A stretch of 64,000 nt of DNA from Hydnum rufescens UP504 (taxonomy: Eukaryota; Basidiomycota; Agaricomycetes; Cantharellales; Hydnaceae). Positions 4,531-64,000 of this stretch are shown here, piece after piece; the stretch's first letter is position 1; each line of letters opens with the position of its first letter. The notes beneath the pieces are model-generated. The model worked only from the letters and a program-made list of their open reading frames with translations, was not told the origin of the DNA and did no database searches. Location of the stretch: contig MU129175.1 in assembly GCA_014904985.1 (NCBI GenBank), forward strand, positions 1-64,000. The letters run 5' to 3'. The position numbers were made by a program, and so were the translations under genes.

Positions 4531-4539
4531 GTGTAATGA

Positions 4540-6812: not shown

Positions 6813-7240
6813 GGACACCGGCCACCCACCTAGTCGCCACTATCTACCACTACATACATCACTTTAATTGGTGATGCCAACACCTCTCTTCACGTTGCAC
6901 GACTCTTGCTGTCTGACGCTGACAAGCTATCGTCTCTTGATATACCTGTGGAAGTTATAGACTGGCTCAAGTCTTCGTCTATTCGGCATATTGATATCGT
7001 CTCAAGCCGTGGGCCGTCCCAAGTTTCTTTTAAAGCCAAGGGGCTTTACAAACTGCTGCGGCCTCGATCGACGGATCTTCCTCCCCAGGACCATTACGCC
7101 AAGAATCCCGAATTCTCGCCCTCCTTTCCGAAGGTTCTGAACCTCCACCTCGAAGTACACCGAAGATGTTTTCTATTCGATTTCTCCGATTACCACAATC
7201 TTCCTCGTCTTCCTGTTGTACCATTATGTATGATCTCAAT
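6813..7240 (+). pseudogene. ARH1 (adrenodoxin reductase) internal fragment 1
   Basis: It resembles the middle of the ARH1-like gene at 30,935-32,476. The DVARLLL region is present as TSLHVARLLLSD, followed by DKLSSLDIPVEVIDWLKSS, RHIDIVSSRGPSQVSFKAK and later coding and intron sequence. It is a fragment without the FAD-binding N-terminus. It is fused at its left end to M3 peptidase sequence, the same joint as in the copy at 22,300. Confidence 0.7.
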
Positions 7241-7352
7241 GCGACAGACAATATGTATGGGGAACCATTACAAGTGCAATTTGGATCGGAGAAATAACAA
7301 GAAATAACAAGAAAATAGCAATAAGTCACAAAAACATCTATAAGGCATTTCT

Positions 7353-8412
7353 TCACGGCTTCACTTTCCGTGGTCGTCCCCGTTTCTTGCCCTCCATCAC
7401 GACTTGCTTGCCGTTATTCTGCCTAACTTGATGCCCCCCAACTGGATCTTTGACCTCGAGGTCAGTCCCGTTTTCTTCCACAATTCCAAAGCCCAGTTTT
7501 CGCGCATGATCAACAACGCCCGTCTCTGTCGACCAATACTTCCCGGCAACGTAGACGGTTGCCATTTGAGTGCTCTTCCCGAGAAACTTGAGGCTCCCTC
7601 AAGCTTCCGATCAACTTGAACAATTTTGTTCTATATATATTTATATCTGTATGAGTCCAAACCATGCATGGAAGAGATATTGAGGACTCACACCATCAAC
7701 AAAATCCTTCGTCTCTAGGAAATAAATGTGCTCGTCAGGGCCTTCCCAAACGCCGTCCCACTCCGCAATATCAGTCTCCCCAGTGAGAAATCGCCAGCCA
7801 TCTTGTCTAGCGGGGTCTTTTGCCACAAATCGCCGAATACCAGGAAGAAAGAGGTGACGTTCAATAGCTTTGATTGCCTTCTCCTCAAAGGCCTTGTCAG
7901 AGATTTGATGGTGGAGGGCACCTTGTTCCTGAGCAGAATATAAGGGGTGCTTCGCCAGGTAGACGATTGTGGAGTCGATGGTCGAATGGGTCATCTCTGC
8001 CGGGGAAATCGCGACATTGGTGACAGGATTCGTAAAGATCCACCCGCGGAAGTAAGACTGAAATGTTTGTAGGGTGTGGAATGTGGTCGTCACAGGGGTA
8101 TCCTTTGGGGTCTTATAAGTGACAGTGAAGGTTGGATGCGGAAGAGAGGTCGCCTGTCTAAGCTGAGTGAGCCTCGAATGAGATTGAAAGTACCGAGGGA
8201 CTTGGGATATGGGAAACATAGGACTATAGATTTCAGGTGCAGCGAGCTGGTTCGGTATCGGTGTCAGGACGTTGGTGCGTGTGGCAATTTCCGTCCAGAC
8301 GCGTCTCAATGCTCTTGAATCTTCTACTTGGTTCACGCACGAAACTCTGTAGCTGTCCCTCTAGCAATGGATTGAATGGCGTTTTCACCACGGCTTCCCC
8401 TCGCTCACTCAT
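7353..8412 (-). pseudogene. PD-(D/E)XK-like nuclease with AT-hook, decayed copy
   Basis: This is a diverged copy of the intact gene at 22,875-23,948. From ATG 8412 it has the same exon layout, the motif EWDGVWEGPDEHIYFLETK and a C-terminal AT-hook (KKRGRPRKVKP). The first intron donor is GTGCGT instead of GTGAGT. Exon 3 carries a 1-bp deletion relative to the intact copy (in the KLEG/KLEK region, about 7,595), which breaks the frame. The protein-level similarity over the central 190 residues is high, so decay is recent. Confidence 0.65.
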
Positions 8413-10237: not shown

Positions 10238-11979
10238 TTAGCAATTTGCCCCTTCTGCAAACTTTGCTAGTGAGGGACAAATGTTCAAGGCCTCTCCATT
10301 CACCTTGAGGGCCTCTTCATGGCACCCCAATTCAGAAAGACACAGGGAGAGGTTGTTCAGAGACTGAGCAAGATCTGGGTGGAATACTTCGGGTTGATCT
10401 GTGGCTAGGGAGTGACGAATGCCCAAGGCCTCCTCATTTGCCTTGACAGCCTCTTCATGACGGCCAAATTTCAAAAGATGATCAGAGAGGTTGTCAAGAG
10501 ACCAAGCGAGATATGGGCGGAATACTTCGGGTTGATCTGCGGCCAGTGAGCGATAAATGCCCACAGCCTCCTCATTTGCCTTGATGGCCTCTTCATGGTG
10601 GCTGAATTCCGAAAGATGAATGGAGAGGTTGTTAAGAGAATGGGCGAGACCTGGGCCGTATACTTTGGGTTGATCTGCGGCTAGTGAGCGACGAATGCCC
10701 AAGACCTCCTCATTTGCCTTGACAGCCTCTTCATGACGGCCAAATTTCGAAAGATGATCGGAGAGGTTGTCAAGAGACCAAGCGAGGTATGGGCGGAATA
10801 CTTCGGGTTGATCTGTGGCCAGTGAGCGATGAATGCCCACAGCCTCCTCATTTGCCTTGAGGGCCTCTTCATGGCCGCTTAATTCCGAAAGACGAATGGA
10901 GAGGTTGTTAAGAGAATGGGCGAGACCTGGGCGGAATACTCCGGGTCGAACTGCGACTAGTGAGCGACAAATGACCAAGGCCTCCTCATTTGCTTTGATC
11001 GAGGTTGCCGGTAACCCCATCTCCTCCAGCCGTCCTTGCAAAGACGCGCCGATATGCTCAAACATTGCATGACCCGCTGGACGTTCGAAGAAATCGTGCA
11101 GTCCCGCCGCAACAATCGATCCCTAAAAATGGGTTCTGTTATTACCCAAGAAAACAGCTGTTGGCCGCCACAAATCACTCACGACAGACTTTTCAGAGCC
11201 TGCCAGTGGTCTTGCCGAGACAGGTGGGCCCGGAAACGCGATCCCCTCTACTCTGTCCGGAGGGTTGGATACTGTCATCAACGTCACGATCTTTACGATG
11301 ACGTCAGCTCATTGGCATGAAGTGTGAATGCGCGTATTGAGTACATACTCACTTGGAATGTGTGCAAGCAATCTGTTAGATTCTCTCCGTGTATCGCTAT
11401 CGCATTCGTAATTTGGTCCCGCTGGAGATAGCGCTTCACAAGATTTAAACGGGACCATTGTGTTGCGTCAGCGTGGATTGCCATCAAGTTGCTATAGTCG
11501 AAAGAGATATATTTCACTGCAGAGATTGTACGAGGACATTGGAAAGCATACCGTGTTAAAATACGTAAACTTGAAGCGATTTTCGTATCATTCATGTTCT
11601 TCCCCTTCAACCCGTCCACCAAGGTCTCGAGAAACCTTGTGACCCGAACCAAGAGCTGTGTACATCTATCTCGTCCGTCCTGCATGGTTTTAACCGCCTC
11701 AATGACCTCCGCCAAGACATCGAAAACCCGAGTAAGTGGACCAGAAAGTGCGAGTGGAAGAGCTGGGATATCACGGATCATCGAAGATATAACGAGAGGG
11801 GCATCCCATCCTCTGCCGGTGGTGTCGTTGAGGTAATCTGGGTATACAGGCTGAGGCGCAGTTGCGATAGTAGGTCGAACGGTGGAGGTGGATCCTCCGT
11901 TAGGAGAGGAATCGTTGGATGGGGGTAATGATGATTGGACGCTAGGTCTTCTCGGTGAAAAGAGTCTTCTGGAGGACAT
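10238..11979 (-). CDS. TPR-repeat protein, shortened paralogue (copy 2)
   Basis: The first exon starts at ATG 11979 (MSSRRLFSPRRPSVQ) and includes PVYPDYLNDTTGRGWD. It is followed, after an intron with GTATGC donor, by SNLMAIHADATQWSRL and DCLHTFQ. Further exons lead to FEHIGASLQGRLEEMGL and directly into 46-residue TPR units (LSxxGRHEEALKANEEA type). About six units are present before the stop at 10,238. Compared with the 46.5-kb gene, the linker between the head and the TPRs is deleted and about nine TPRs are missing, ending in a foreign-looking tail (KFAEGANC). It may be a functional short form or a truncated relic. Such proteins are usually protein-protein interaction scaffolds; the function here is unknown. 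Confidence 0.55.
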
Positions 11980-16793: not shown

Positions 16794-16886
16794 TACACCT
16801 AGCCTAATATAAACCCCCCCCTTTTTCCTGCAGATGGGACAGCAGTCTACCATCAGACAGAATCCTTCACGATATATCCCAGACCC

Positions 16887-18167
16887 ATGTCAGTGGGACG
16901 GAAACCGAGGGGTGGACGAGGAACCCCCAAACCATCAGCCTTTAGACCATGGGTCCAAGCAGAACATTGTATGTTTTGCTGGGTCTCACCGGAAGTGGTA
17001 GCCAAGCGAGCACACCTAATCCACAGCCACCCCGAGCAAGCCATGACCTTAGGGAAAACACAGTGGGTCATGCAACAAGCTCTAGAGAAATCCATGCGGC
17101 AAGCCTATGCCTCAGGCCTCCTGAGGTGGATCGAGTGGGCTGATGCTAACAACATACAAGAGCATGACCGGTTACCCGCCAATGAGATACTCCTTGGCTG
17201 CTTCATTGCAGATGCAGCCGGAGTGATTGGGGAGGCAGGGATCAAGAACTGGTTTGCAGGATTGGCAGCCTGGCACCGATACCACAACATTCCTTGGCAT
17301 GGATCGAGCGCACGCACGGCCCTGATACTGGCAGGTTGCCGGAAACTGGCACCGGAGTCCTCAATGAGAGAACCTCGTCCACCAGTCACGATCCCTCACC
17401 TCTATGCAATTCACCGCCAGATGGATTTCTGCAACACATATGACATTGCATGTTGGGCCATCGTCTGCTGTGCATTCCATGGTTTGGCTAGATTAGGGGA
17501 AGTTACTGTGCCCACCAAATCGAGCTTCAGGAAAGATCGGCATGTCCACCGAGGGACAAGACTCCAGAGAGAAGAGAACAATGGTATAAAATCGATGTCT
17601 CTACACATTCCCTGGACCAAAACAGCACAGATGCGAGGGGCAGAGCTAATCCTGACATACGAAGAAGGCCCCACATGCCCATATCGGGCTATCGAAAGAC
17701 ATCTGGAGATCAACTGCGACGTCCCTCCACATGGACATTTCTTCGGTTATGAAACCACAACAGGCTGGGAACCCCCAATAAAAAGGAAGGTGATGGACCG
17801 TCTATCGAATATTTGGCGAGACGCTGGCCTGGAAGTCCCGACAGGACACAGTTTCCGCATCGGCAGAACCACCTTTCTCCTAGAGCGGGGCACGGACATT
17901 CAGATAGTCCAGAAATTAGGACGGTGGAGCTCGGACTCCTTCTACCTATACTGGAGAAACCTCCAATCAATCATTCCACAGCACATCCACGATGCAGCAT
18001 TACTCAAGAAGGTTAATAACTCGATGAGTGCATACTTTGAGGAAACCGACCCCATCCTAGTAAGTAGGTGGAAGGAAATACAAGAGGCTCGGGCCCGCAC
18101 AGCAGGAAGCAATGGTAACACAGGGATTGTAGCTCGGAGGTCAAAGAAACAGAAGAAGAGTACATAG
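16887..18167 (+). CDS. Tyrosine recombinase of the PAT element
   Basis: 426 residues. An N-terminal SAM-like core-binding region (QALEKSMRQAYASGLLRWIE) precedes the catalytic domain. The catalytic signature can be followed: Arg in HGLARLGEV, the His-x-x-Arg box in GHSFRIGRTTF, the Trp in LGRWSSDSF and the Tyr nucleophile in the following YLYWRN. All residues are present, so the enzyme could be active. It would integrate the circular DNA intermediate without duplicating the target, which agrees with the flanks. The basic C-terminal tail (RRSKKQKKS) may be a nuclear localisation signal. Confidence 0.88.
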   Translation: MSVGRKPRGGRGTPKPSAFRPWVQAEHCMFCWVSPEVVAKRAHLIHSHPEQAMTLGKTQWVMQQALEKSMRQAYASGLLRWIEWADANNIQEHDRLPANEILLGCFIADAAGVIGEAGIKNWFAGLAAWHRYHNIPWHGSSARTALILAGCRKLAPESSMREPRPPVTIPHLYAIHRQMDFCNTYDIACWAIVCCAFHGLARLGEVTVPTKSSFRKDRHVHRGTRLQREENNGIKSMSLHIPWTKTAQMRGAELILTYEEGPTCPYRAIERHLEINCDVPPHGHFFGYETTTGWEPPIKRKVMDRLSNIWRDAGLEVPTGHSFRIGRTTFLLERGTDIQIVQKLGRWSSDSFYLYWRNLQSIIPQHIHDAALLKKVNNSMSAYFEETDPILVSRWKEIQEARARTAGSNGNTGIVARRSKKQKKST

Positions 18168-32876: not shown

Positions 32877-35040
32877 TAAAGAAGGACCCGGGAGTGCCTA
32901 AATTAATCGCACTTAAGAAAAAGGAGAGAAATGTGAGGATTGTGCATTGGTAGCTATTTTTCACCGCTCATTTCATCGCAGCATGAGCCAGGCCACACCA
33001 AAGGCGACGTGACGATGGGTCCGCCCCCACCTCGAGCAGCGACCATTTCTTCCCTCGCAATATCCTCCAATTCGATGGCGGAGAGCATCCTAGAGTCTGG
33101 GGAGCCAGAGTCTTCACGTGGTCAACGAGACTCCACTGTTACAGCCCATGCCCACCAGTTTAGAAAAGTCCTGGAATTGTCCGACGTCATCATTCAGGTA
33201 GAGGCCTGAATCATCTGCTGGGAATTCCCTCCAATTCACCGCTGTCGATGATCTTAGGTATTAGATGCACGAGATCCTCTAGGATGTCGCAGTCGTATAG
33301 TTGAAGATGAGGTTCGAAAAGCAGGGAGGTGACAAAATGATGATATTGGCCCTGAATAAAACAGGCGAGCCTCAACTCTCTCTTATCGGTTTTTGGTGTT
33401 TGAACTCACTGTACAACGTACAATCAATGAAGACCTCGTCCCGAAGGAGAATGTACTGGCTTGGTTGCGATACCTTCGTCACGACTGTCCTACTGTGCCT
33501 CTCAAATCCTCGTCTTCCCAAGTTGCACCATTCGAAGCTCAGCACACAATCTTCATCCAAAAACAAGGGTGGCGCCCCGCATCTTCTCACCCTTCTTAAA
33601 TCCTACAGGCGTGCCCACACGTCGTTAACTGTAGGGATTGTTGGACCCCCTAATGTAGGCAAGTCGTCACTCATCAACTCCCTCTCCCGCCTGCGAGGGG
33701 GAGGGGGGGATGTCGTGAGGGTTGGGGCAAAACCCGGTGAGACGCGTGACATCAAGCAGGTCGGTATAGAGAAGGGGTTAAAGGTACTAGACATGCCTGG
33801 TATCGTATGGGGCGATTTCTTGGGTGATGGCTCCTCTGTCGGAAGCGGGGCTCCACGAATTGGGAGTTTGAATATGATGGGCGTCGAGTTTCTCGAAGAC
33901 CCCGTTGGCGCTGGTAAGCAATCGTGTTGTAACCTTTTTCACCCGGCTAATGTTCCTGATGTAGTGGAAGGGATCATTTCCCGTGTACCTCCTGAGACGT
34001 TGCAACGAATATATTCTGTCCCGCCATTCGCAACTGCAGCCGAATTTCTTGTAATGGTTGCTCTTTCTCGTGGGCGACTTGGAAAGGTACACTCTTATCC
34101 CCTACATGGGACAAAATTTACAAGTCCATCGCTTACAAATTGTCCAGGGCGGGGCACCGGATCAAGTAACCGCCGCCCGCTCAGTCCTGAACGACTGGAA
34201 TGCAGGCTCAATACCGTATCACACCGTTCCTCCCACAATCCATCCTTCATCCATACCCTCAGTGCCCCGTGCTGAAGCCGATCTCGGGCTCGAGAACCCC
34301 GCCGCTAACATGGATATCAATGATGGTTCCAAGCTGACAACTGCCGCAGATGTCGGCGCTGCCCAAATCGTGTCCAAGTTCAGCGAGCCGTTCGATCTCG
34401 CTGGATTGTTCTCTCTCACCGACAAGCTGTCCTCGATAATGATGAAGGGGAAGATGAAACAGGAGATGTCTCCACTATGGAAGGAATTGACGCCGACGTG
34501 GGTGTGGATGCAGCCCTAGAAGCAGACCCTATGCAACGAAGCTACATCAGAAGAAATGTATGGCAGAGCACTCCTTTACTTCGTATCATCTCCCTGACAT
34601 GTCTGTTCATCTAGCAGCGCAGCGACTTCCCAGTTCACTCGCCAAACAAACGGGCACATTCTCCAACAGCTTCCATCATTTCTCTCTCTACCAGTTGCTG
34701 CACCCGCAATACCGGAATCCGAGTTTGAGCAACGAAGCACCCGACCTGTCAAACTTCCCAAGCCAAAACGGGCGCGATACAACCCGAACGCACCTCTCGT
34801 CCTCGACTCCCATGAAGCCGAGGCAATGGCTGAGTCAAACCCCTCAATCGGAAGCGGCTGAGGGAGGAAGCCAAGCGCCGTAAGAAGGCACCGGAGGACA
34901 TGGTTGTCGATGACCAGGATGCACCCATCATCGACAAGATCCATGATGGATTTACACTCAAACCCAGTATCTCGGCTTTCGCTGTCCTCGCTGCGGAGGA
35001 TGTCCCCCTTCCTGCTGAAGACGAGGACGAGGAATTGTAG
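32877..35040 (+). pseudogene. Nucleostemin/GNL3-like circularly permuted GTPase, frameshifted
   Basis: It begins within the basic N-terminal region (ELKKDPGVPKLIALKKKERN) and continues through AHAHQFRKVLELSDVIIQ and VLDARDPLGCRSRIVEDEVR. G4 follows (LNKT/DLVP, across a GC-AG intron at 33,365-33,432), then GIVGPPNVGKSSLINSLSRL (G1), DMPGIVWG (G3), PPFATAAEFLVMVALSRGRL, AARSVLNDWNAGSIPYHT and a basic C-terminal tail (KRLREEAKRRKKAPED). The G4-G1-G3 order is diagnostic of the permuted YlqF/GNL3 family, nucleolar GTPases in 60S ribosome assembly. One extra base at about 33,327 and another shift near 33,540 break the frame, so it is damaged or mis-assembled. The N-terminal exon is not resolved. 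Confidence 0.78.
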
Positions 35041-46500: not shown

Positions 46501-49500
46501 ATGCCCTCCAGAAGACTATTGTCGTTTGGGAGACCTCGGTCAAATCGCCATCACCCACATCCGATAATTCCTCTCCGGAGGGAGCATCCACCTCCAGCGT
46601 TCGATACACTCTTCCTAATGCTCCAACCGTGCCTCAGCCAGTATATCCGGATTACCTCAATGAGACTGCCAGTCCAGGATGGGATGCTGCTCTCGCAGTG
46701 GCCTCCATCTGCGAGGTTATTCCTGCTGTCCCCCTCGCGCTTATAACCCCACTCACCCAAGTTTTGGATATCGTGTCGGAGATAAGGAGAGCAGTTGAAA
46801 CCATGCGCGATGGGAAGGATGCATGCGCCCACCTCATATTTCGAGTCCTAAAGTTCCTCCACTCCTTGGTGGACGGCTTGAAGGGGAGGAACATCCCAGA
46901 TAGTACGCCAACAGCTTCAAGTCTATTTTCTTTAAAAAGGTATGTATTCGTTACACATTCTCTGTAACGAGATATATCTCTTCGCCAATGACTATAGTAA
47001 CTTGATGGCGATCCATGCTGACGCAACACGATGGTCCCGTCTGCATCCTGTGAAGCGCTATACCCAGCGGGATAAAATTATGAGTGCGATTTCGATGCAC
47101 AGTGTGAATCTGACAGATTGTTTGCACACATTCCAAGTGAGTGTACTATATTTAATATGCACATTCTCACTTCATGCCAACGAGCCGACGTGATCACGAA
47201 GATCGTGACCTCAATAACAGCATCTTGCCCTGCGGAAAGAGGAGAGACGATCGCACTTCCAGGCTCAGCAGTGTCAGAAAGACCGCCGGCAGCCTCTGAA
47301 AACCCTCTCGTGAGTGATTTGTGCCGGTCGACAGCTGTTTTGTTTGATCATAACAGACTCCATTTTTAGGATCGGTTGTTGCAGCGGGACTACGCGATTT
47401 CTTCGAACGTCCGGCAGTGTTCGAGCAGATTGGCGCAGCTTTGCAGGGACGCTTGGAAGGGATGGGGTTGCGAGCAACTACGGCACCACCTGGCTCGAGG
47501 TACGTACCATTCTTAGTTCACGAGGCCAGCTAGACACTGATGTAGACGAAATAGGTCCTCGGGCATGACCATCCTACTAACTGGGCATCGCCGTCACGTC
47601 TCATACCTGACGAGGCAGATATCCGAGCTCACAGCGGAAGTTAGCCTTATCTTGCCGGATATTTCAGTCGCCACGGATGTCAAGGCACAGTTCGTGGGAT
47701 GGGAAACTCACTGGCAACAGATTGGGAACCCGACGCGGCAACTCCACGAAACAGTTTCGGCGACATTGCAGCTGCTGAATGAGCTGCATGGTGTCCCACA
47801 GATTGAAATTGATTCAGCCATGCTATCAAAAAACATGAACGAGTTGGGGTTGAACTTGAGGGATTTGGGCCTTTGGGACGAAGCCCTTGAGGTGCAGACT
47901 ACAGTAGTGGTACTGCGCCGGGTTGGAGGAGACCACTCAGATCTTGCTCCCTCACTCTCCAATCTCTCCGCCTGTCTTTGGGACCTTGGGCGCAATAAGG
48001 AAGCACTCCAGGCATGCCAGGAAGCCGTAAGCATTTATCGTCTTCTAGCAATGGATACATTCCGCCCCCGTCTCGCTCGCTCGCTCCACAACCTCTCCGT
48101 TTATCTGGCGGGATTTGGCCGCCATGAAGAAGCTCTCGAGACAAATCAGGAGGCCTTGAGGATTTGTCGCCTGCTAGCTGCAGATCGACCCGACGTATTT
48201 CTCCCGAGTCTTGCCGTCTCTCTGAACAACCTCTCCCTTTGTTTTTTGGAATTTGGCCGCCATGAAGAGGCACTCAAGTCAAACGAGGAGGCCTTAAGAA
48301 TTTATCGCTTCCTAGTCACAGATCGACCCGAATTATTCAGCCCAGATCTTGCTCGCTCTCTTCGCATTCTCTCCCTTCATCTTCGGGGCTTCGGCCGCTA
48401 TCAAGAAGCACTCAAGGCAAATGGGGAGGCCTTGAGCCTTTATCGCTTGTTAGCTGCAGATCGCCCGGAAGTATTCCGCCCAGATGTTGCCCGTTCTCTT
48501 CGCATCTTCTCCATTCATCTTTCGGAATCTGGTCACCATCGAGAAGCGCTTGAGGCCATTGAGGAAGCCGTGAGCATTGATCGCCTGCTAGTTGCAGATC
48601 GACCGAAGTATTCCGCCCAAATATTGCTCGTTCTCTGCGCATCGTCTCCGTTCACCTTGCGGGATTTGGCCGCCATCAAGAAGCACTTGAGGCAAGTGAG
48701 GAGGCTGTGCGCATTTATCGCCCGCTAGTTACAGACCGACCGGAAGCACTCCGTCCTGATCTCGCTCATTCTCTTCTCATCCTCTCCCTTTGTCTTTCGG
48801 GAATTGGCCGCCATCAAGAAGCCCTCTTGGTGAGTGAGGAGGCCTTGCGCATCTATCGCCTGCTAGGTGTAGATCGCCCGGACGCATTCCACCTAGATCT
48901 TGCTCACTCTCTTAACAACCTCTCCCTTTGTCTTTCTGAATCTAATCACCATCAAGAGGCCCTCAAGACAAATCAGGAGGCCTTGAGCATTTGCCGCCTG
49001 CGGGTCGGAGATCGACCCGAATTATTCCGCCCAGAACTCGCTCACTCTCTTTGCAACCTTTCTGCTCATCTGTTGGAATTTGGCCGGAATCAAGAAGCAC
49101 TTGAGGCAATCAAGGAGGCATTGAGCATTTATCGCTCCCTAGTTTCAGATCGACCGGAAGCGTTCCGCTCAGATCTCGCTCGTTCTCTTCTCATCCTCTC
49201 CATCTGTCTTTTGGAAGTTGGCTGCCATCAAGAAACACTTGAGGCCAGTGAGGAGGCTGTGTGCATTTACCGCCCTCTAGCCACAGATCGACCAGAAGTA
49301 TTCCGCCCATGTCTCGCTCTCTCGCTTCAGAACATCTCCCGGTGTTTTTCGGAATATGGCCATCATGAGGAAGGACTCGAAGCAAACGAGGGGGCCTTGA
49401 GCATTTGTCGTCAGCTAATCGCAGATCGACCGGAAGTATTCAGGCCACATCTCGCTTGCTCTCTTGACACCCTCTCCTGTCATCTTTCGAGATTTGGACG

Positions 49501-50011
49501 CCATAAAGAAGCCCTTGAGGCGAGTGAGGAGGCCCTGTACATTTTCCGCCTACTAGTGGCGGATCGACCGGAAAAATTCCGCCCCGATCTTGCTCGCTCT
49601 CTTATCAACCTCTCCCTTCCTCTTTCAGTATTTTGCCGCCATCAAGAAGCGCTTGAGGCGAGTGAGGAGGCTGTGAGCGTTTACCGCCTGCTCGCCATGG
49701 ATCGACCTGCTGTCTTCCGTTCCAAGCTCTCACACTCACTGTCCAATCACTTCGATATTCTTTCCAATCTTCGTCGTTTCCCCGATGCGCTCGTGGCGAT
49801 TCAAGAGGCAGTAAACTTATTCAGACCCCTCGCAATAGAGCACCCTGATGTCTGGGCTGAACAATTTGCATCATTACTCTCCAAGCTTTCACGCTCTTAT
49901 TCAGATGTGGCTGAATACGTCAATACGAGGATGGGTTGCAAACAAGCAGGCAATCAGCCTGTCTTGACCTATAGATCCTCACCAGGGCGCGGGTATCCAT
50001 TTGATGCATGA
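46501..50011 (+). CDS. TPR-repeat protein, longest copy (one or two 1-bp lesions)
   Basis: A helical head begins at ATG 46501 (MPSRRLLS), with PVYPDYLNETASPGWDAALA and VLDIVSEIRRAVETMRDGKD. Further exons follow (SNLMAIHADATRWSRLHPVK; FFERPAVFEQIGAALQGRLE; GHRRHVSYLTRQISELTAEV). From about 47,830 there are 15 TPR units of 46 residues (138 nt), each of the type SLNNLSLCFLEFGRHEEALK and then a DRPE-F-PDLAR tail. A missing G at about 48,604 (in the GACCGGAAG context of other units) shifts the frame between units 6 and 7. The head appears one base short near 46,540. The role is probably protein-protein scaffolding. Similar multi-copy TPR genes are common in agaricomycetes. Confidence 0.75.
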
Positions 50012-52596: not shown

Positions 52597-53894
52597 ATGT
52601 GGAAATCTATTCGCAAGCTTTTTAAACGCGACAGCGATAAGCGCTTTAGGGTCCTCATACTTGGACCAGCGAACGCAGGAAAGACCACTCTACTCGAGCG
52701 ACTAACGGACAGCCCTGCCGGCGCAGCCACAGTGACCCGCAACGGAAAACGTGTAATTACTGTAGATGTTCGAACCCAGTAGAGATGCTGGTCTAATTTA
52801 TCCCTTTATCCAAGGTCAACGAGGTCCCCCGAGGATACGATCAAGTAAGAGTCATCCTAACAAAGGTGCACTGCGGTCGCTCGATATTTTCACACCATCT
52901 AGCGAGGGATTCATAACATCGACGACGAAATCACTTATGCATCAAACCCGGCATTCATTTTCCACGACTCTGGTGGTTTCGAGGCGGGAGGGGTCGAGGA
53001 GCTTGAGGCTGTCTGGAAATTTATTCGAAAGCGCTCGTTGGCTTCGCCTTTGAACCAGCTGCATGCGATTTGGTGCGTTCACCCATACAGTTCCCTCTTC
53101 TTCATATGTCGACTCATCAATTATTACAGGCTCTGTATTCCGACAGATAATGACAGGCCCTTGGGATTCTTGCAATCAGGCTTTTTCTCCGAATCCACAG
53201 CATCAGGTATGTCCCATCAGTCGCGGTATTCGACACTATCGGTTACGCACTGGTCCATGTATCCGTTCAGTGCCTGTTATCGGAATTTTCACCAAGTTGG
53301 ATGGAAGAAGGACGAAAGTGGAGATTGAGGTTCTAGGCCCTGCTCCCAGCCCATCTGATTTCCGCGATCGTGCCCAGGAGGTGGATCAGAAAGTAGCTGA
53401 ATTTGTCAATGGACTCGAGACACAATTTCGCAATGAGCGGTACCCACCGGCTGGTTTCATCGGGGTTGGAAGTATGTATACTCTATGCAAGCAGCAATTT
53501 TGGCACTTAAATCTATGGCCTAAAGACATGGATGAAGTTAGCATGCGGAGCATAGCATTGTGTGACCAACTTCTTCTAGTCACTATGGATGCTCTTCCCC
53601 ATGAGACCCAGAGATCATTACTTAGGCTCACGGTTTGGAAAAGAAACCGCCGAATTCATACCATGTTTGTTTTAAAGCGGTGAGTTTGGATGTCCAACAG
53701 ATTGATGGTGGCTCATGCTTGTGTTTATCTCATAGTGTCCTTCATGCTGGGACTCAAGGTCCTGTGTCAAGCTGTATTGATGAGATGATGGTACAATTTG
53801 ACTATGTTCAGGGAGCATTGTGGCTAGAACCCAACAACCTGTGCAAGATGAAGAATCAGAGTTACATGCAGACAAGGGTTTCAGGATTCTTATG
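52597..53894 (+). CDS. Fungal P-loop GTPase leading into the micro-exon array
   Basis: Exons 52,597-52,761, 52,815-52,844, 52,903-53,072, 53,130-53,206 and 53,271-53,471 (with a further intron near 53,472-53,525) join in phase. Motifs are LGPANAGKTT (G1, residues 22-31), FIFHDSGGFEAGG (G3), LNQLHAIWLCIPTDNDRPLG and VIGIFTKLD (G4). The C-terminal region reads ALPHETQRSLLRLTVWKRNR. After an intron at 53,680-53,735 an exon of 159 nt (VLHAGTQGPVSSCIDEMMVQ, through to RVSGFL) stays open and ends at 53,894 on the first donor of the array, two bases into a codon. This GTPase family is abundant in basidiomycetes; its role is unknown. The link to the array is inferred from phase only, and the last exon lies in the CpG-poor domain. 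Confidence 0.7.
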
Positions 53895-56290
53895 GTAAGT
53901 GAATATATCCCTTGCACAACATTTAAGGTACTGATTGTATCATGGGGGGTATAACTGTGGCAACTGGTTCTGACAATATGACACATAATTTACTCATTGG
54001 ATGGTGTTGACAACATAGGAGGTATGACTGCAGGTGTTCACATTTGGTGCACAATCATTGGCTTACATGTCTCTTTGTGACACTGTCAATGTAGTTGGTC
54101 AGTCTGGATCTTGAATACATGGTCACTGACTGATATAATTTTTGCTGCCATTGGGAACACAGTATGTGAGTCCAAATCTCCCCCAATTCCATGCATCATT
54201 CCCTGATACAGCTGGTGGAATCCACAACACAGGGGGTGAGTTTATGTCTCTTAGTTGATATGAGGTGGCTGTATATCTTTTGGTGGCATGGATAACATAG
54301 CATGTGAGCATGGATCTCCCACCATTAGATCCACACTGTCACCAGCTGATATCTCCCTTGGTGACATCAATCATGTAGGAGGTAAGACTGCACCTGTCAT
54401 AGTTTCATATGTGGTCACTAGCTGATAGAACATTTGGTGGCATGAACATAGGATGTGGGTTGGATTTCCCCACCATTCAATGTGTTATGGCTGACTTATA
54501 CATCTTTTCCATGGCATAAACAACATAGCTTGTATGTCCAGATGTCTTGGAATTTGATGCATGGTCACTGACTGATAAATATTTTATTGACATTCACACT
54601 GTAGTATGTATGTGTAGATTCAACATGAGATTCATGGTTGATACATCATTATGTGCAATGGATAAAATAGGAGGTCAGTCCATATCTCCCAGCCTTCATT
54701 GGTGATTGTTGGGCAATGCATCATTTGGTGATGTGGATAATGTAGTATGTGAGTAGGAATTTCCTATAAGTTAGCACCTGGTCACTGGTTGATCCATCAT
54801 CCAATGTAGAAAGTAAGCCTGGATCTCTTACAATTAGATGTGCTTGGGCAGGCTGATATCTCTTTGTCTGTCATGGACAATGTAGGGAGTAAGTTAAGAT
54901 CTCTCACAATCTGATCCATGGTCCCTCATTGGTACATCATTTGGCATTGACACCACAGCCTGTAAGTTTCAATATCTCCCAATTTTTTGAGTGTGGTCAC
55001 TGGCTAATACATTGTTGGATAACACTGATAATATAGGATGTAAGTCTGGATCTCCTCTGCCTTGATGCACTATCACTGGCTGACACATCACTGGATAACA
55101 TAAATAACCAAGAATGTGGGCTGTCTTTCAATTTTGTGCTTGATCATTGGCTGATCCATCTTCTGGTGGCACTGACAACATAGAATGTAAATCTGAATTT
55201 CCAACTATTCAATCTGTTGTTGGCTAATATATCTTTGGGTGATGTTGACAATGGAGGCTGTATGTTTGGTTCTCTTCCAATGAAATGTTCATGTACAGAT
55301 TGATATTTCTTGGTCTGAATGGACAATGCAGGAAGTAGGGCTGATCTCACAATTTAATGCATGGTCACTGTCTGATACATTGTTTGTTGCCATTGACAAT
55401 GTAGCATGTAAGTTCAGATCTCTGCTAATTAAACATGGGATCACTGGCCAATATATTCTTTGGTGACATTGATAATGTAGCATGTAGGTTCTGCTGCCAC
55501 TTTGATGGACAATCACAGGCTGATACATTCTGGATGAACTTGACAATATAGGGGGTGAGCTGGACTCACTTTTGACTCTGTGTGGTGACTTGCTGATCTC
55601 ACCAATGGCATCAACAATGTAGCTGGTGGGCCCAGGAGTTCTCACAATTTGATGCAGGATTGCTGGCTGATTCATCATCTGGCTGCATTGACAATGTAGG
55701 AAGTGAGTGACCTCCCCCACCACTTGATATATAGGTGTTGGCTGATACATTGCCTGGTGGTATCACAAATGTAGGCTGTATGTTGAGATTTCTTGCAATT
55801 GAATGTGAGGTCATTGGCTGATACACTGTTTGGTGGCATGGACAATGTAAGATGGTGAGATTCTATATACCACCATTCATTGAGTGGCCCTCAGTTGTTA
55901 TAGTTGTATGGCCTTAACACCATAGTATGTAAGTCCACATCTCAGTCTGATTGATGCATGGTGTCTGCCTGATGCAGTGTTTGGTGGCTTTTGCAAACAA
56001 GAGGGTAGGTCTGGATACTTGAATTCCATATGTCACTGCTAGCTGATGTATCATTTCATGGTTTTGATAACACAGATGGTGAGATGGGATCCTTGAGAAT
56101 TTGATGCAAGGTGCTGATTGGTTGGTCAACCTGAACACTGTAGGATGTAAGTGCATATCACTCTTCTGGTTATGGGTTGATACATCTTTGGGTGGCATTG
56201 AAAATGTAGGAAGTAAGTGTCTGAATGTCTGAGAATTTGACACATCATCCCTTGCTGATTCATCATTTGGTGGCATTAACAACATAGATT
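53895..56290 (+). repeat. Micro-exon/intron array, diverged 5' part (micro-exons 1-32)
   Basis: Successive intron-like units of 61-75 nt, each starting GT (GTAAGN, GTGAGN, GTATGT, GTCAGT, GTGGGT) and ending AG (mostly TAG or CAG). Most have CTGAT, CTAAT, CTGAC or TTGAT about 25-40 nt before the end. Exactly three bases separate each AG from the next GT. Unit sequences are otherwise strongly diverged. Triplets start at 54019, 54095, 54163, 54233, 54301, 54379, 54452, 54529, 54605, 54671, 54746, 54810, 54886, 54959, 55037, 55113, 55184, 55257, 55332, 55405, 55481, 55552, 55623, 55700, 55775, 55852, 55926, 56002, 56076, 56144, 56210 and 56288. The first intron (53,895-54,018) is double length and seems to hide a decayed unit near 53,945. 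Confidence 0.9.
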
Positions 56291-59200
56291 GTAAGCATGG
56301 ATGTCATAGAATTCAATGGATTGTCCCTTGCTGATCCATCATTTGGTGCCATTGACTGCATAGCTTGTAAGTGTGGATGTCATAGAATCCAATAGATTGT
56401 CCCTTGCTTATTCATCATTTGGTGCCATTGGCCTCCTAGCTTGTAAGTGTGGATGTCATAGAATTCAATGGATTGTCCCTTGCTGATTCATCATTTGGTG
56501 CCATTGACCTCCTAGCTTGTAAGTGTGGAGGTCATAGAAATCAATGGATTGTCCCTTGCTGATTCATCATTTGGTGCCATTCACCACATAGGCTGTAAGT
56601 GTGGATGTCATAGAATTCAATAGATTGTCCCTTGCTGATTCATCATTGGATGCCATTCACCACATAGGATGTAAGTGTGGATGTCATAGAATCCAATGGA
56701 TTGTACCTTGCTGACTCATCATTTGGTGCCATTCACCACATAGCTTGTAGGTGTGGATGTCACAGAATTCAATGGATTCTCCCTTGCTGATTCATTGTTT
56801 GGTGCCATTGACCACATAGCTTGTAAGTGTGGATGTCATAGAATTCAATGGATTGTCCCTTTTTGATTCATCATTGGGTGCCATTCACCACATAGCATGT
56901 AAGTGTGGATGTCATAGAATTCAATGGATTATCCCTTGCTGATTCATCATTTGGTGCCATTCACCACATAGGAAGTAAGGGTGGATGTCATAGAATTCAA
57001 TGGGTTGTCCATTGCTGACTCATCATTTGGTGCCATTCACCACATAGCTGGTAAGTGTGGAGGTCATAGAATTCAATGGATTATCCCTTCCTGATTCATC
57101 ATTTGGTGCCGTTGACCTCATAGGATGTAAGTGTGGATGTCGTAGAATTCAATGGATTGTCCCTTGCTGATTCATCATTTGGTTTCATTCACCACATAGC
57201 ATGTAAGTGCAGGTGTCATAGAATTCAATGGATTGTCCCTTGCTGATTCATCATTTGGTCCCATTGACCACATAGCATGTAAGTGTGGATGTCACAGAAT
57301 TCAATGGATTGTTGGTTCCTGATTCATCATTTGGTGCCATTCACCACATAGTATGTAAGTGTGGATGTCATAGAATTCAATGGATTGTCCCTTCCTGATT
57401 CATTGTTTGGTGCCATTCACCACATAGGCTGTAAGTGTGGATGTCACGGAATGTGATGGATTGTCCCTTGCTGATTCATCACCTGGTGCCATTGACCTCA
57501 TAGGCTGTAAGTGTGGATGTCATAGAATTCAATGGATTATCCCTTCCTGATTCATCATTTGGTGCCATTGACCTCATAGGCTGTAAGTGTGGATGTCATA
57601 GAATTCAATGGATTGTCCCCTCCTGATTCATCATTTGGTGCCATTCACCACATAGGCTGTAAGTGTGGATGTCATAGAATTCAATGGATTGTCCCTTGCT
57701 GATTCATCATTGGGTGCCATTGACCACATAGCAGGTAAGTGTGGATGTCATAGAATTCAATGGATTATCCCTTGCTGATTCATCATTTGGTGCCATTGAC
57801 CTCATAGGATGTAAGTATGGATGTCATAGAATTCAATGGATTGTCCCTTGCTGATTCATCATTGGGTGCCACATAGCAAGTAAGTGTGGATGTCATAGAA
57901 TTCAATGGATTGTCCTTTGCTGATTCATCATCTGGTGTCATTGACCTCATAGGCTGTAAGTGTGCATGTCATAGGATTCAATGGATTGTCCCTTGCTGAT
58001 TCATCATTTGGTGCCATTCACTACATAGTATGTAAGTGTGGATGTCATAGGGTTCAATGGATTGTCCCTTGCTGATTCATCATTGGGTGCCATTGACCAC
58101 ATAGTATGTAAGTGTGGATGTCATAGAATTCAATGGATTGTCCCTTGTTGATTCATCATTGGGTGCCATTGACCACATAGCATGTGAGTGTGGATGTCAT
58201 AGAAAATGGATTGTCCCTTGCTGATTCATCATTTGGTGCCATTGACCACATAGTATGTAAGTGAGGATGTCATAGAATTCAATGGATTGTCCCTTGCTGA
58301 TTCATCATTTGGTGCCATTGATGACATAGGGTGTAAGTGTGGATGTCATAGAATTCAATGGATTGTCCCTTGCTAATTCATCATTTGGTGCCATTTACCT
58401 CATAGCTTGTAAGTATAGATGTCATAGAATTCAATGGATGGTCCCTTGCTGATTCATGATTTGGTGCCATTGATGACATAGGGTGTAAGTGTGGATGTTG
58501 TAGAATTCAATGGATTGTCCCTTGCTGATTCATGATTTGGTGCCATTCACCACATAGGCTGTAAGTGTGGATGTTGTAGAATTCAATGGATTGTCCCTTG
58601 CTGATTCATGATTTGGTGCCATTCACCACATAGGCTGTAAGTGTGGATGTCATAGAATCCAATGGATTGTCCCTTCCTGATTCATCATTTGGTGCCATTG
58701 ACCTCATAGCTTGTAAGTGTGGATGTCATAGAATTCAGTGGATTGTCCCTTGTTGATTCATCATTTGGTGCCATTGACCTCATAGCTTGTAAGTGTGGAT
58801 GTCATAGAATTCGATGGACTGTCCCTCCCTGATTCATCATTTCATGCCATTGACCACATAGGATGTAAGTGTGGATGTCATAGAATTCAATGGATTGTCC
58901 CTTGCTGATTCATCATTTGGTTCCATTGACCACATAGGAAGTAAGTGTGGATGTCATAGAATTCAATGGATTGTCCCTTGCTGATTCATCATTTGGTTCC
59001 ATTCACCACACAGCTTGTAAGTGTGGATGTCATAGAATTCAATGGATTGTCCCTTGCTAATTCATCATTTGGTGCCATTGACTTCATAGCATGTAAGTGT
59101 GGATGTCATAGAATTCAACAGATTGTCCCTTCCTGATTCATCATTTGGTGCCATTCACCACATAGGCTGCAAGTGTGGATGTCAAAGAATTCAATGGATT

Positions 59201-60374
59201 GTCCCTTGCTGATTCATCATTTGGTCCCATTGACCACATAGCAAGTAAGTGTGGATGTCATAGAATTCAATGGATTGTGTGTTCCTGATTCATCATTTGG
59301 TGCCATTGACCACATAGCTTGTAAGTGTGGATGTCATAGAATTCAATGGATTGTCCCTTGCTGATTCATCATTTGGTGCCATTCACCACATAGGCTGTAA
59401 GTGTGGATGTCATAGAATTCAATGGATTGTCCTTTGCTGATTCATCATTTGGTGTCATTGACCACATAGCTTGTAAGTGTGCATGTCATGGAATTCAATG
59501 GATTGTCCCTTGCTGATTCATCATTTGGTGCCATTCACCACATAGGGTGTAAGTGTGGATGTCATAGAATTCAATGGATTGTCCTTTGCTGATTCATCAT
59601 TTGGTGTCATTGACCACATAGCTTGTAAGTGTGCATGTCATGGAATTCAATGGATTGTCCCTTGCTGATTCATCATTTGGTGCCATTCACCACATAGCAT
59701 GTAAGTGTGGATGTCATAGAATTCAATGGATTGTCCCTTGCTGATTCATCATTTGGTGCCATTCACCACATAGCGTGTAAGTGTGGATGTCATAGAATTC
59801 ACTGGATTGTCCCTTGCTTATTCATCATTTGGTGCCATTGACCACATAGCATGTAAGTGTGGATGTCATAGAATTCAATGAATTGTCCCTCATCATTTGG
59901 TGCCATTGATCACACAGCAAGTAAGTGTGGATGTCATACAATTCAATGGATTGTCCCTTGCTGATTCATCATTTGGTGCCATTGACCACATAGGCTGTAA
60001 GTGTGGATGTCACAGAATTCAATGGATTGTCCCTTGCTGATTCATTATTTGGTGCCATTAACCAAATAGCATGTAAGTGTGGATGTCATAGAATTCAATG
60101 GATTGTCCCTTGCTGATTCATCATATGGTGCCATTGACCACATAGGCTGTAAGTGTGGATGCAATAGAACTCAATGGATTGTCTCTTGCTGATTCATCAT
60201 TTGGTGCCACTGACCAACATAGGCTGTAAGTGTGGATGTCATAGAATTCAATGGATTGTCCCTTGCTGATTCATCATTTGGTGCCATTGACCACACAGCA
60301 TGTAAGTGTGGATGTCATACAATTCAATGGATTGTTCCTTGCTGATTCATCTTTTGGTGATATTGACAACATAG
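56291..60374 (+). repeat. Micro-exon/intron array, homogenised core (micro-exons 33-85)
   Basis: 53 units of 76 bp (a few 68-77) with nearly identical introns: GTAAGTGTGGATGTCATAG, GAATTCAATGGATTGTCCC, a branch-like TTGCTGATTCATCATTTGG, and the acceptor GACCACATAG. Only the triplet between acceptor and donor is hypervariable (GCT, CTT, CAT, GAT, TAT, GAA, CAA, GGT, CTG, CAG, CGT). Triplets start at 56364 and every 76 bp to 57808, then 57877 and every 76 bp to 58181, 58254 and every 76 bp to 59850, then 59918, 59994, 60070, 60146, 60223 and 60299. One donor is GC (59,169). The unit ending at 59,917 lacks the CTGAT segment. Confidence 0.95.
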
Positions 60375-60821
60375 GTTGTAAGTCCAGATCTCTTAGAATT
60401 TGATGCATCTTCTTCACCAATTCATCTTTTCATTTCATTGACAATGTAGCAAGTGAGTTGGAATGTCTTGGAATCCAATACATTGTCCTTTGCTGATTTC
60501 CCCTTTCAATGATAATGCAGCCTGTAAGTCCACATATCTCAGAATTCTATTCACCCTTACTTGATCATGTCCTACTTGGTGGTTTGTCCCATAGGAGGTC
60601 AGTCCACACCTCCCACTCTTGTATTTGTGATCTCTGGACAATCTCTTACATCTACAACATAGGATGTATGTCCTCTCTCTTACTATTCTGTGTATGGTCC
60701 TGCCTCATACACATCTCACTGACATTCACAATGTTAGCTTGTGAGTTCATAAATTTATACAATGGAATAATATCCTATTTTTTGGCTGCACTCCTCATCC
60801 TTGTATTTATTACAGGATAAT
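60375..60821 (+). repeat. Micro-exon/intron array, diverged 3' part (micro-exons 86-92)
   Basis: Triplets at 60375, 60450, 60521, 60595, 60663 and 60738 are again separated by diverged introns with good GT and AG borders. The last micro-exon is six bases, GATAAT (60,816-60,821), followed by donor GTGAGT. The divergence mirrors the 5' side, so the array has old edges and a young core. Confidence 0.88.
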
Positions 60822-61376
60822 GTGAGTTACATCTAATGTGCCAAAGCCAAATGATTCTGTGTAATTGTGGTCTCATCATTGCTCCCCTGTTATCTGGTAA
60901 ATATTGAATATTGTCAAGCCTCACCTCCATCCTTGTCCTTATCTCTCCCAAATTTTATTAGGTGCTCAAATATTCAGGCAGTCAAGGCCTGTGTGCCCTT
61001 CCTCAAACTGTTGGTCAGTTTAGGTTCTTGTTCATTCCCCCCCTCCAGGATGTCTAAGCAACCATTCCAGCATCACCTGCCTATTATATCCCACCCAAAT
61101 CTTCAATATCTGGTGTTTATTTGTTGTCAGGGTTGCAACTAATTCTAACTGTGGAAGAGATTGCTGATCTTGGTTTGTTAACCAGTGGTCATCCTTTGGA
61201 TTCGGAGGGGGAGGAATGCTGATTTGCCTGATGCACCTGAAATAGAGCACACCACTAACTTGGTCCAGGCTCAAATCAGGAGTGACTTGGTGGATTATGG
61301 AGATTTTCAAGCACTAGACTCATATGCTACTGCAGACAGACTGGCAAGGATCATTGATGACTACACACCAATGTAA
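60822..61376 (+). other. Putative 3' exons after the array
   Basis: A long intron (60,822-60,961, ending TTTTATTAG) may be followed by an exon 60,962-61,013. If the array is read with codon = micro-exon, this continues VLKYSGSQGLCALPQTV. In the alternative phase it reads CSNIQAVKACVPFLKLL. Further on are HHLPIISHPNLQYLVFICCQ, reminiscent of the OrsD/DUF3505 zinc-binding type, EEIADLGLLTSGHPLDSEGE, and an end with LVDYGDFQALDSYATADRLA before a stop at 61,376. Frames change between these pieces, so they could be exons or a decayed transposon gene. Confidence 0.35.
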
Positions 61377-64000
61377 TCTGTGCAGAATACATGTATTGAG
61401 TCAACAGATATCCTCCAATGTCATTAGTTGTCAATCCTTATCTCTGCTGGGCTGATCCACTCAGAGGTGGAGGTCAGTCTCAATGGATCAGGTGTGATAC
61501 CCATGCACCACAGTGTAGGTCACACAATTTCTGTACCTTAGTAGGGCCTATATCTACATGGAAACCAAAGGACTTTTTCTAGTCCCACTATAGGAGGTAA
61601 TCAAGATACAGTACATTGTTTTAAACTTTTTCAATTCTCAGGGGGTGTCTGTTGAGGGATGTTCATAGATTGAGGAGTCAATTAGGTAATTGGGTCAGTA
61701 TGGAGGATAGCCCCTTAATATGATTGATGAGGGAATTCATGGTGTGAGGATTATGTAAGTCATGGAAGATGAGTACATGAGAGACATGGAGCAGGAAGAC
61801 TAATTCTCAATGGGACTTGATATGAGAGAATATGAGGAGAAGATCATGAGTGATAAGAGACTTTCTGAGAGTGAGAGTTCAATAAAAGACAACATATTCT
61901 TGATCTTCTGGGGAGTGGGAGTGCAAGAGGTAACTACTTATATACCAAAGGATCAAGGAGGAATTGGTAAGATAATTATTAAGAAGGGAAGGGTGACAAA
62001 GGAAGAATGTGAGAGGTAAGCAGGAAGGTGAACATTAATAAGGAAAGTGACTAGAAGTGGTAAGCAATGGGCAGTGATGAGGTGAGATCATGTGCTTATG
62101 GAATAGTCCCACCTGGTCAGCCAGAAAGGTACATCTAGTTAGCCTTGCATTTAAATAGTCTAACTAGACATTTTTAGGTGGGGGCCCCTGGGGCCTCTGG
62201 GGTGGATTTCAGATCTTCAGACAAGGGGCCCCAGGGGCCCCTGGCTCTGAACTTGGTGCATCATGCTTAAGTTCTCAGAAGGGTGGTGCTCACTGTGCTT
62301 GGTGAAGCAACCATAATTATGCACTATATTATGTTATTATACAAGCATAAAAATGACTATATGATTCTTAAGTCAAATAGAGCATAAAATTGGAAGTGGG
62401 GTTAAGTGTTGGAAATCACTGAAAGTCTGTAGATAGATTGAGGGTACCATCAGCATTGAACACAACATGTGAAAAATCAAACCCATCCAAAGTGGCAGGA
62501 GGTAGCAAGGTGTTGAAGGCTTCTGCATACCTGTAAGGGGTGCACCCTTAGTAGATTACATAATGCTTATGTAATAGAGTAGATACATAGATGGAAGAGG
62601 AGCCAGGAAAACCTGCCTTCACTTTCACCTATTAATGTATCTTTGGATTGTTGGTAGTTGTGGCTGTGAAGCTCCTTAAGAATATGCTAAGTATGCCTTA
62701 CACTTTTTTACCAACTCATTTCTCCAAAGCAGAAAGAAAAAACTACTCAATTACATAAAGAATTTTTTCACATTGCCTGACAACAGATCTGATGACAAAG
62801 GGAGAAGTAACACAGGCAACCATTGTTGGAGGGATAAATCCCTACACCATAGAATCCTCATCCAAGGCCAAATTTCCTTATGAACAAATTAATTAATTGT
62901 CACCCCACTCATTGAATTCTTTGTCATTCATCTACTCAAGAATCAATTGGATTCCTACCCCCTATCAATCCACAATTCTACCACACTCCTTTACCATGAA
63001 CACCAGTCAATTTGTTGACTGTCCATTGGACTTCAACAGTCCTCATCAAAAGGGGGCAGTTTATGCTCTATCTCAAGTCCAATTTCTTTGGACAAGGCAA
63101 TTCAACTTGCCATCCTTCCCCAAGACTGTATGACTCATCTATTCTTCCAAGCCATCCTACTGCCTTAAGGGAAAAGTATTGTGACTATGTAATGATGAGG
63201 ACCAGGCCTAGTTCTGATTCTGGACTCATGAATCCATCACATGATCCAGAAAGGGGCTGCACTACTCTCAAGGAGTATTTTTTGAATTTCTCCCTCAGTT
63301 ATGATTGGGTGGACTCAAAATGACTGCTCCCAGAGATATATGAATTGTACCTATTGAACAGTACCAAGCATGCAATAATTGGATCAAAAGTGTGGTCCCT
63401 GTACCATGATCTTTCCATGATTCATACTCTGAAGGAGTATTATTTGATTTTTAAAACCAATTCTTATCTGATTCACTTGTGACTACTACTCCCTGAAAGC
63501 TGTTGAAAATGCGCATCAACTGGTACCAATGGAAAAATGATCAGATGTGAACTCCATTTTTCACAAGACACCCCCCTCCCCATGACTCCCCCTTTGCTCC
63601 ACCATTGCAAATAGTGAATTACTTCTGGCCCTTTTATGTCTGATGGAGAAAATCTTCAGGGCGACCTATTCCACTTTTCCTTAAGGGAACTTGTCCAGAA
63701 TTGAAGGAGGAATAGCATGTAATGTGTCAATCTCCCCTTTTATCTTCAAATTGGAATATCTCCATCAGTTTTGAAGATTTTAACCTCATTTATTTTTCTC
63801 TGTGTCCCTTATGGCCGGCTTTTTCACATTTTATTGAGCTGAAGTCTTGATTGTATATTAGGTGCAGCTAGCACACAATTCAGGAGTTCTCCCCCTCCCT
63901 CCAGTCTGAAGCACAGTGACTTGCTGCTGGTTTGTGGGTGATTTCTTACTTAAAAAGACTACTCTAAATATGCTTTGAATAAGGTCTCAAGAGGAGATTC
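61377..64000. other. CpG-poor, gene-poor stretch, possibly transposon-derived
   Basis: No convincing coding region. A purine-rich tract just before GTGTCTGTTGAGGGATGTTC (about 61,640) resembles the polypurine tract/LTR start of fungal Ty3-type elements, but no second LTR is in the window. 62,178-62,250 has a GC-rich inverted repeat. The small frame 61,810-62,019 and those at 62,897-63,323 show no domain. Confidence 0.4.
62178..62250. repeat. GC-rich inverted repeat (hairpin)
   Basis: GGGGGCCCCTGGGGCC on the left pairs with GGGGCCCCAGGGGCCCC on the right, with a loop of about 35 bases. It is striking within an otherwise AT-rich, CpG-free stretch, and it contains no CpG itself. Confidence 0.65.

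Follow-up and report, generated by a model that had tools for sequence, protein, structure and literature searches.

Can a protein-coding gene be interrupted after every single codon, dozens of times in a row, and still be read correctly? The question is raised by a window of 64,000 nucleotides (nt) from Hydnum rufescens UP504, an ectomycorrhizal hedgehog mushroom (Basidiomycota, Cantharellales). The window covers positions 1 to 64,000 of contig MU129175.1 in assembly GCA_014904985.1, and is contig C267 among the 539 contigs (63.2 Mb) that were searched. It holds a strong tandem repeat of 76 base pairs (bp), in which each unit looks like a complete short intron and neighboring introns lie three bases apart. 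An initial annotation, made from the letters alone, had read the repeat as an array of about 91 consecutive 3-nt micro-exons followed by one exon of six bases. The evidence assembled here makes it very probable that the array encodes, joined codon by codon, a stretch close to the C-terminus of GTPase-like proteins that form a multigene family in Hydnum.

An array of one-codon exons and its joined triplets

A dynamic-programming parse of splice sites over positions 53301-61500, with a prior that favors 3-nt exons, returns one unbroken chain of 92 exons on the forward strand, from the donor at 53895 to position 60821. Its first 91 exons, from 54019 to 60740, measure exactly 3 nt each, and the last is a single 6-nt exon, GATAAT (D N), at 60816..60821, which bears out the count first proposed. 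A looser parse, which allows exon lengths of 1-40 nt under a flat prior, still finds mostly 3-nt exons: 67 of 71 in the window, and 1073 of 1228 when 29 copies of the array are taken together. The strict pattern YAG-NNN-GTRAGT occurs at 66 sites in the window, 65 of them inside the array, whereas shuffled windows average 1.49 sites with at most 5, and none of 100 shuffles reaches 66. With the preceding exon closing in phase 0, every micro-exon amounts to a single codon. On this layout, the first 31 one-codon exons, whose codons are conserved, spell ELYGHEDLYEYKGPDNN-A-EHHGLEAMYRMDE and occupy 54019..56212 (+), 54 exons of a variable region occupy 56213..60301 (+) with their introns at a mostly 76-nt period, and six exons of a conserved end, VQPEDL, occupy 60302..60740 (+). 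Together with the DN exon these give the 93 array residues of our gene model, about the number of codons first predicted.

Are the units introns? The claim that each carries full splicing signals largely stands. All donors but one are GT (the exception, GCAAGT, follows a GCT exon near 59164), and a branch-like YTRAY motif lies 8-45 nt from the acceptor in 87 of the 92 array introns. Acceptors are mostly TAG or CAG, with some AAG and GAG (1087, 160, 56 and 10, respectively, in 20 whole-looking copies defined below). The length range of 61-76 nt given earlier does not extend to the first array intron (53895..54018, +), which measures 124 nt. With GT(GC)-AG ends, a branch-like motif and absence from complementary DNA (cDNA)-like sequences, the units have the properties of U2-type spliceosomal introns.

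The joining of the triplets can be followed in proteins translated from cDNA-like contigs. Protein searches gave 25 matches: seven NCBI models from Hydnum, five that run into the first array intron, three that cover the C-terminus only, and ten in which micro-exons are joined. The last group (P0004, P0006-P0013 and P0025; source jgi, contigs of 0.9-1.6 kb) reads through 4 to 43 consecutive one-codon exons. P0004, from a 936-bp contig, gives RILM, then 30 array exons as ELYGLEDLYEYK-TPQA-HNLENENEEQHQLETVY, then VSPDPY; 29 of the 30 are single codons, and TPQA instead of A fits an AG located 9 nt upstream in the intron after exon 12. The tail has a genomic source, as the intron after exon 30 of copy L032 encodes VSPDPY-stop in frame. 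P0009 corresponds to L026 (9 exons), P0010 to L027/L033 (8), P0011 to L030 (4) and P0012 to L028 (4), and all four continue in frame into the next intron of the matched copy at a ratio of 1.0. Counting P0004, five proteins run exactly into the next intron of a known copy, and P0013 nearly does so. P0006 and P0007 share the same 29 joined codons, 27 of which are common to copy L037, and end in SRYHID, a tail that was matched by no genomic copy read and perhaps marks an alternative acceptor. P0008 joins 11 codons and was matched to none of the copies read.

The longest run is found in P0025, a translation in the +1 frame of a variable region after splicing, with 43 one-codon exons and the DN-type 6-nt exon. 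It aligns without gaps to copy L024, with 37 of 44 residues identical, and six of the seven differences fall within seven neighboring residues; the variable part thus varies from one individual, species or close copy to the next. In arrays rich in NNT triplets, the +1 frame after joining may be free of stops and encode almost nothing but hydrophobic residues, as seen with P0025.

Could such peptides be encoded without interruption elsewhere in the genome? No contiguous genomic copy of the joined peptide was found: 43 of the 44 matches to the preceding exon stop at RILM (residues 28-29), and at the remaining locus the match extends as far as residue 43, at 60% identity and across an internal stop. 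A DNA pattern search for other copies likewise found none. Since the introns are absent from the ten contigs, we take these contigs as RNA. If they are, one-codon exons are joined in order and in phase 0, with transcription, and the initial proposal that the units are true introns is supported, the conservation of the peptide between copies agreeing with it. A satellite-like repeat or an assembly artifact that mimics exons would explain the strong 76-bp periodicity, but the array recurs at many loci with conserved flanks, its conserved codon string persists between diverged introns, and spliced sequences come from independent sources, which would refute this explanation if they are RNA; its probability is negligible.

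The initial annotation had further suggested that skipping of micro-exons could make combinatorial variants, and one may ask whether each gene yields many isoforms in the manner of schistosome micro-exon genes (MEGs). Symmetric 3-nt exons would let the frame survive skipping, and splicing is visibly non-uniform, as unspliced introns, an alternative acceptor (TPQ in P0004) and one unexplained tail (P0006/P0007) are all seen. Clean skips would stay in frame and hence be visible, but no unit is skipped up to the point of exit from the array in the nine cDNA-like proteins that can be compared with a genomic copy (all but P0008), a small sample. The idea has so far found no support, and we consider combinatorial skipping unlikely.

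Coding constraint on the triplets

If the triplets are codons, their sequence should carry the marks of a protein. The third codon base is T in 69% and C in 0.2%, a bias that reflects splice-site constraint. A test based on the ratio of nonsynonymous to synonymous change (dN/dS) was therefore set aside, because third positions, held by the splice site, change less than positions 1 and 2; invariance relative to introns and avoidance of stops were used in its place. Among the 1318 one-codon exons of 20 copies there is not one stop, against 31.4 expected from base composition. In units 1-12 of 25 copies, 19 of 36 codon sites are invariant as against 139 of 700 intron sites (p=2e-5). The codons CTT (Leu) and GCT (Ala) occur at about 1.8 times the expectation from base composition, the serine codons TCT and AGT at about 0.3 times, and TGT and GTT are depleted too. 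Frameshifted copies offer another comparison: where the upstream exon is shifted, later units of 3 nt number 31 of 41 (L017) and 43 of 61 (L023), as against 71 of 71 in the window.

These counts bear on the possibility that the array is merely a splicing ratchet that removes about 7 kb of intron, with codons that hold no information and a protein set by the flanking exons. Such a ratchet would sit well with middle codons that cannot be aligned between copies, and with the stops in the 3' flanks of some copies. It would leave the conserved codons at both ends of the array, the lack of stops and the bias at the amino-acid level (CTT and GCT up, TCT and AGT down) without a cause, and is very improbable.

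Several observations weigh against a coding region joined codon by codon. Within the conserved codons, compared over the 25 of 29 copies whose parse starts with ELY, positions 1 and 2 differ between copies at 0.16 and 0.13, not far from the 0.19 that introns average; the constraint is visible in which codons change and not in the mean difference. A division of the copies into intact and broken, with 3-nt spacing in 919 of 920 later units in the former and 352 of 427 in the latter, is partly circular, having been made partly on the array parse itself; by flanking frameshift alone, the broken copies are L017 and L023. Five of the 25 protein matches (P0014-P0018) run directly into the first array intron and so represent DNA or unspliced RNA, while the RNA origin of the jgi contigs is itself deduced from their removed introns, and no single sequence covers the whole array of one gene. 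Finally, flanking exons carry stops or shifts in L009, L010, L011, L017 and L023, which indicates that not all loci make a full-length protein.

A multigene family with a variable middle

How widespread is the arrangement? A genome search with the exon upstream of the array found at least 49 loci, a lower bound in that the copies on contigs C476 (L022) and C281 (L025) are not among them, and the last exon ahead of the array has 44 matching loci. Thirty of about 50 copies were read, namely the window and 29 others, of which 20 had been picked by an array DNA match and nine by their GTPase exons alone; the places of those nine are absent among the array DNA matches listed. An AG-NNN-GT array is present in all 30 copies, whose downstream DNA was read. 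The joined phase-0 triplets give the common start ELYGHEDLYEYKGPDNN, or a variant of it, in 26 of 29 copies, all but L021 (where the parse is poor), L022 and L025, from which no such start was recovered. The conserved peptide takes the form ELYGHEDLYEYKGPDNN..EHHxLEAMYRMDE ... VQPEDL-DN, with the end present as VQPEDL or a variant before DN. About 31 first and 6 last codons are conserved between copies, and in the window the first block is shared with paralogues and with P0004 and P0006. The middle differs from copy to copy in sequence and also in length: among the whole-looking copies, 13 were read to the end, and their middles have 11 to 66 codons. Codon and intron counts use the 20 of 29 copies taken as whole-looking, excluding L014, L015, L016, L017, L021, L023, L026 and L028 for units other than 3 nt and L033, where the parse ends after 14 units; seven of the 20 are cut by the 5-kb stretch before the array ends, and L037, read later, stands outside the counts. 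In these 20 copies, 13 of 14 6-nt exons are the terminal DN-type exon. The family and its variable codons lay beyond the reach of the earlier, sequence-only reading.

Two side observations concern individual copies. In L010, the last 14 array codons together with the 3' flank occur as a tandem duplicate (381-5083 and 6683-7660). In the related copies L023 and L026 the spacing decays: many units are 2 nt long (CT, GT, TT, AT), and some have 1 or 4 nt.

The host gene lies on the forward strand. Its 5' exons (52597-52755, 52815-52844, 52903-53073, 53131-53205 and 53267-53470), placed by mapping P0001 onto the window, would encode a P-loop GTPase-like domain. They are followed by an exon at 53528..53682 (..FVLK(R), ending in AAGCG before the donor GTGAGT), where paralogue flanks were aligned, then by a 23-nt exon at 53736..53758, (R)VLHAGTQ(G), and by the last long exon before the array at 53812..53894 (..DEESELHADKGFRILM). 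P0004, P0006-P0011 and P0013 read across the junctions that correspond to those of the 23-nt exon. Downstream of the array, whose final GATAAT exon is read through in P0025, come an exon at 60962..61013, VLKYSGSQGLCALPQTV(G), and the 3' terminal exon or exons at 61049..61167, ending in ..CLSNHSSITCLLYPTQIFNIWCLFVVRVATNSNCGRDC and a stop. This C-terminus is provisional, for other models and cDNA-like reads (P0024 and P0025, by reading) imply a further intron following ..WCLFV, together with a second acceptor at 61070/61071. The TGA at 61165-61167 is present in the window and in clade copies such as L012, L018 and L019, and L015 and L024 have a sense codon at that site and read on in frame, so that family copies appear to differ in their C-termini.

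In our gene model the protein has about 448 residues, the 93 from the array making up about a fifth of the coding sequence. The NCBI model BS47DRAFT_1354342 (P0001, 305 residues) has the same exons up to ..GFRILM and then seven other residues, and misses the array. The protein begins MWKSIRKLFKR.., and by reading, its N-terminal domain contains the motifs GPANAGKTT, DSGGFE and TKLD, the first and last of which we take to be the G1 and G4 motifs of P-loop GTPases. Pfam places P0001 with Arf (23.0 bits; cut-off 22.3) and P0002 with MMR_HSR1 (21.9; cut-off 21.9), P0002 scoring 21.7 for Arf, below 22.3. The N-terminus is thus P-loop GTPase-like with Pfam support at the cut-off only. A search against solved structures gave weak matches confined to the P-loop stretches of GTPases (best E 2.6e-4), and a structure predicted for the GTPase part from six sequences has a predicted local distance difference test score (pLDDT) of 31.8.

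What distinguishes the variable region is that introns and codons behave differently within it. The introns are nearly uniform: 679 of 1313 array introns are 73 nt long, neighboring introns of the variable region differ at 5.9 of 73 sites, and mismatches hardly rise with distance (5.88 at lag 1, 6.13 at lag 15). The codons they separate share nothing of this uniformity. Where two units of one array have identical 73-nt introns (80 pairs), the codon upstream is equal in nine pairs and the codon downstream in 14, with 13.1% expected at random, and neighboring codons are equal in 82 of 622 cases (73.3 +/- 7.5 in shuffles). No linkage of codons to variants in the adjoining introns was found when three arrays were tested (mean z -0.02 to 0.30). 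Codons in the variable part, set between near-identical introns, are effectively random. Block copying within or between arrays was rejected as their source: only five shared runs of at least five codons were found, three of them at the conserved edge (RQDGP), and five shuffles of between-array matches gave 0-2 shared runs. Near-identical introns with codon sharing at the level of chance imply that the introns are homogenized array-wide, while the codons keep or acquire their own sequence.

Could the introns instead be introner-like mobile elements that entered an existing coding sequence between its codons? Such an origin would account for identical introns between unrelated codons, and it agrees with the decoupling of intron identity from codon identity, with neighboring codons that are equal no more often than by chance and with intron similarity that is nearly independent of distance. 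Independent insertions would not always land exactly 3 nt apart in phase 0, though, and array lengths differ widely between copies with similar flanks. The spacing is a constant 3 nt in phase 0 where independent insertion positions would be expected, and we judge an introner origin improbable, if less so than combinatorial skipping. For the variation itself, array-wide conversion with the codons held by selection, a process that renews the triplets, and insertion of introns between old codons are all possible.

In the reading preferred here, of a coding array joined codon by codon, the frame would continue in phase 0 from ordinary 5' exons through the 3-nt exons, with complete short U2-type introns bordering each of them. 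The footprints of U1 and of the factors at the 3' splice site are such that sites 3 nt apart can hardly be occupied together. With each AG only 3 nt from the next GT, these factors probably cannot coexist, so that the introns would most likely be removed one after another, from 5' to 3', by intron definition. Reads that are spliced up to one point and then enter the next intron fit a 5' to 3' order without proving it, the search being biased in that it detects only reads open from the 5' side. The DNA repeat would reside in the introns and be homogenized along the array; gain or loss of 76-bp units of intron and codon would change the protein in steps of one residue with the frame kept; and the codon itself would be renewed, or selected to differ. 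A tentative extension, which we hold to be possible but doubtful, is a device for codon-by-codon diversification, with introns as the recombining repeat and triplet renewal writing new tails of recognition GTPases, either through error-prone formation of junctions when units are copied or through selection for change afterwards. As to function, there is a faint suggestion of a GTPase switch with a variable tail, forming a repertoire of recognition proteins that might tell self from non-self, or partner from stranger.

Relation to known systems and the rest of the window

Is there a precedent for such a gene? Schistosome MEGs have exons of 6-36 bp that make up about 80% of the coding region, and mostly encode secreted or membrane-anchored proteins (PMC5825161). 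The Hydnum genes resemble them in having many very short symmetric exons per gene in a fast-changing family. They differ in that all array exons of the window but the last are 3 nt and the array supplies 93 of about 448 codons, and also in that the protein is GTPase-like, the introns form a tandem repeat and skipping was not seen in the small sample. That the spliceosome can join exons of 1-3 nt is known from a 3-nt exon of Drosophila homothorax (PMC7392893) and from 1-nt exons of Arabidopsis APC11 (PMC4674806) and Fusarium CYP621A (PMC12940212); these reports describe one such exon per gene, whereas Hydnum has 91 in a row and 1318 in 20 copies. Fungal introner-like elements are near-identical spliceosomal introns in many copies per genome, gained in different genes (PMC4457414). 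The Hydnum array introns are likewise near-identical spliceosomal introns in many copies in one genome, but stand in tandem, one codon apart, and in one gene family, the only family looked at.

Fungal NLR/HET proteins form another multigene family, with an NTPase domain followed by hypervariable repeats that evolve in concert. The Hydnum proteins are like them in combining an NTPase domain with a hypervariable region in a multigene family, but in NLR/HET proteins the repeats are in the protein, whereas here the repeat is in intronic DNA and the protein is without one. A literature search found no description of arrays of one-codon exons among the titles and openings of abstracts listed, with subscription papers mostly outside its scope, an absence that is not proof. 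Arrays of one-codon exons break the usual picture of minimal exon size and exon density: in dozens of genes, a conserved stretch of protein is interrupted behind each codon, dozens of times without a break, and RNA-like sequences show it correctly read. The limits of intron definition and of sequential splicing become directly testable in one natural locus. Because the repeat structure (introns) is separated from the protein sequence (codons), single residues could be added to or dropped from an array with the frame intact. How mutation and selection leave randomized codons between identical introns is a new question. The array escapes gene finders, and the NCBI model ends where it starts.

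Elsewhere in the window, open reading frames (ORFs) with tetratricopeptide repeats lie at 10241-11122 (-) and 47541-50008 (+) over 138-bp tandem repeats (TPR_12, E down to 5e-36), and a 139-bp repeat at 1-383 resembles these. A second GTPase ORF is found at 33301-34272 (+; MMR_HSR1, E 1.7e-13). The ORF at 16803-18164 (+) has a weak tyrosine-recombinase match (PF00589, 23.1 bits, below the cut-off of 27.1) and belongs to a run of long ORFs from 13230 that is perhaps a mobile element.

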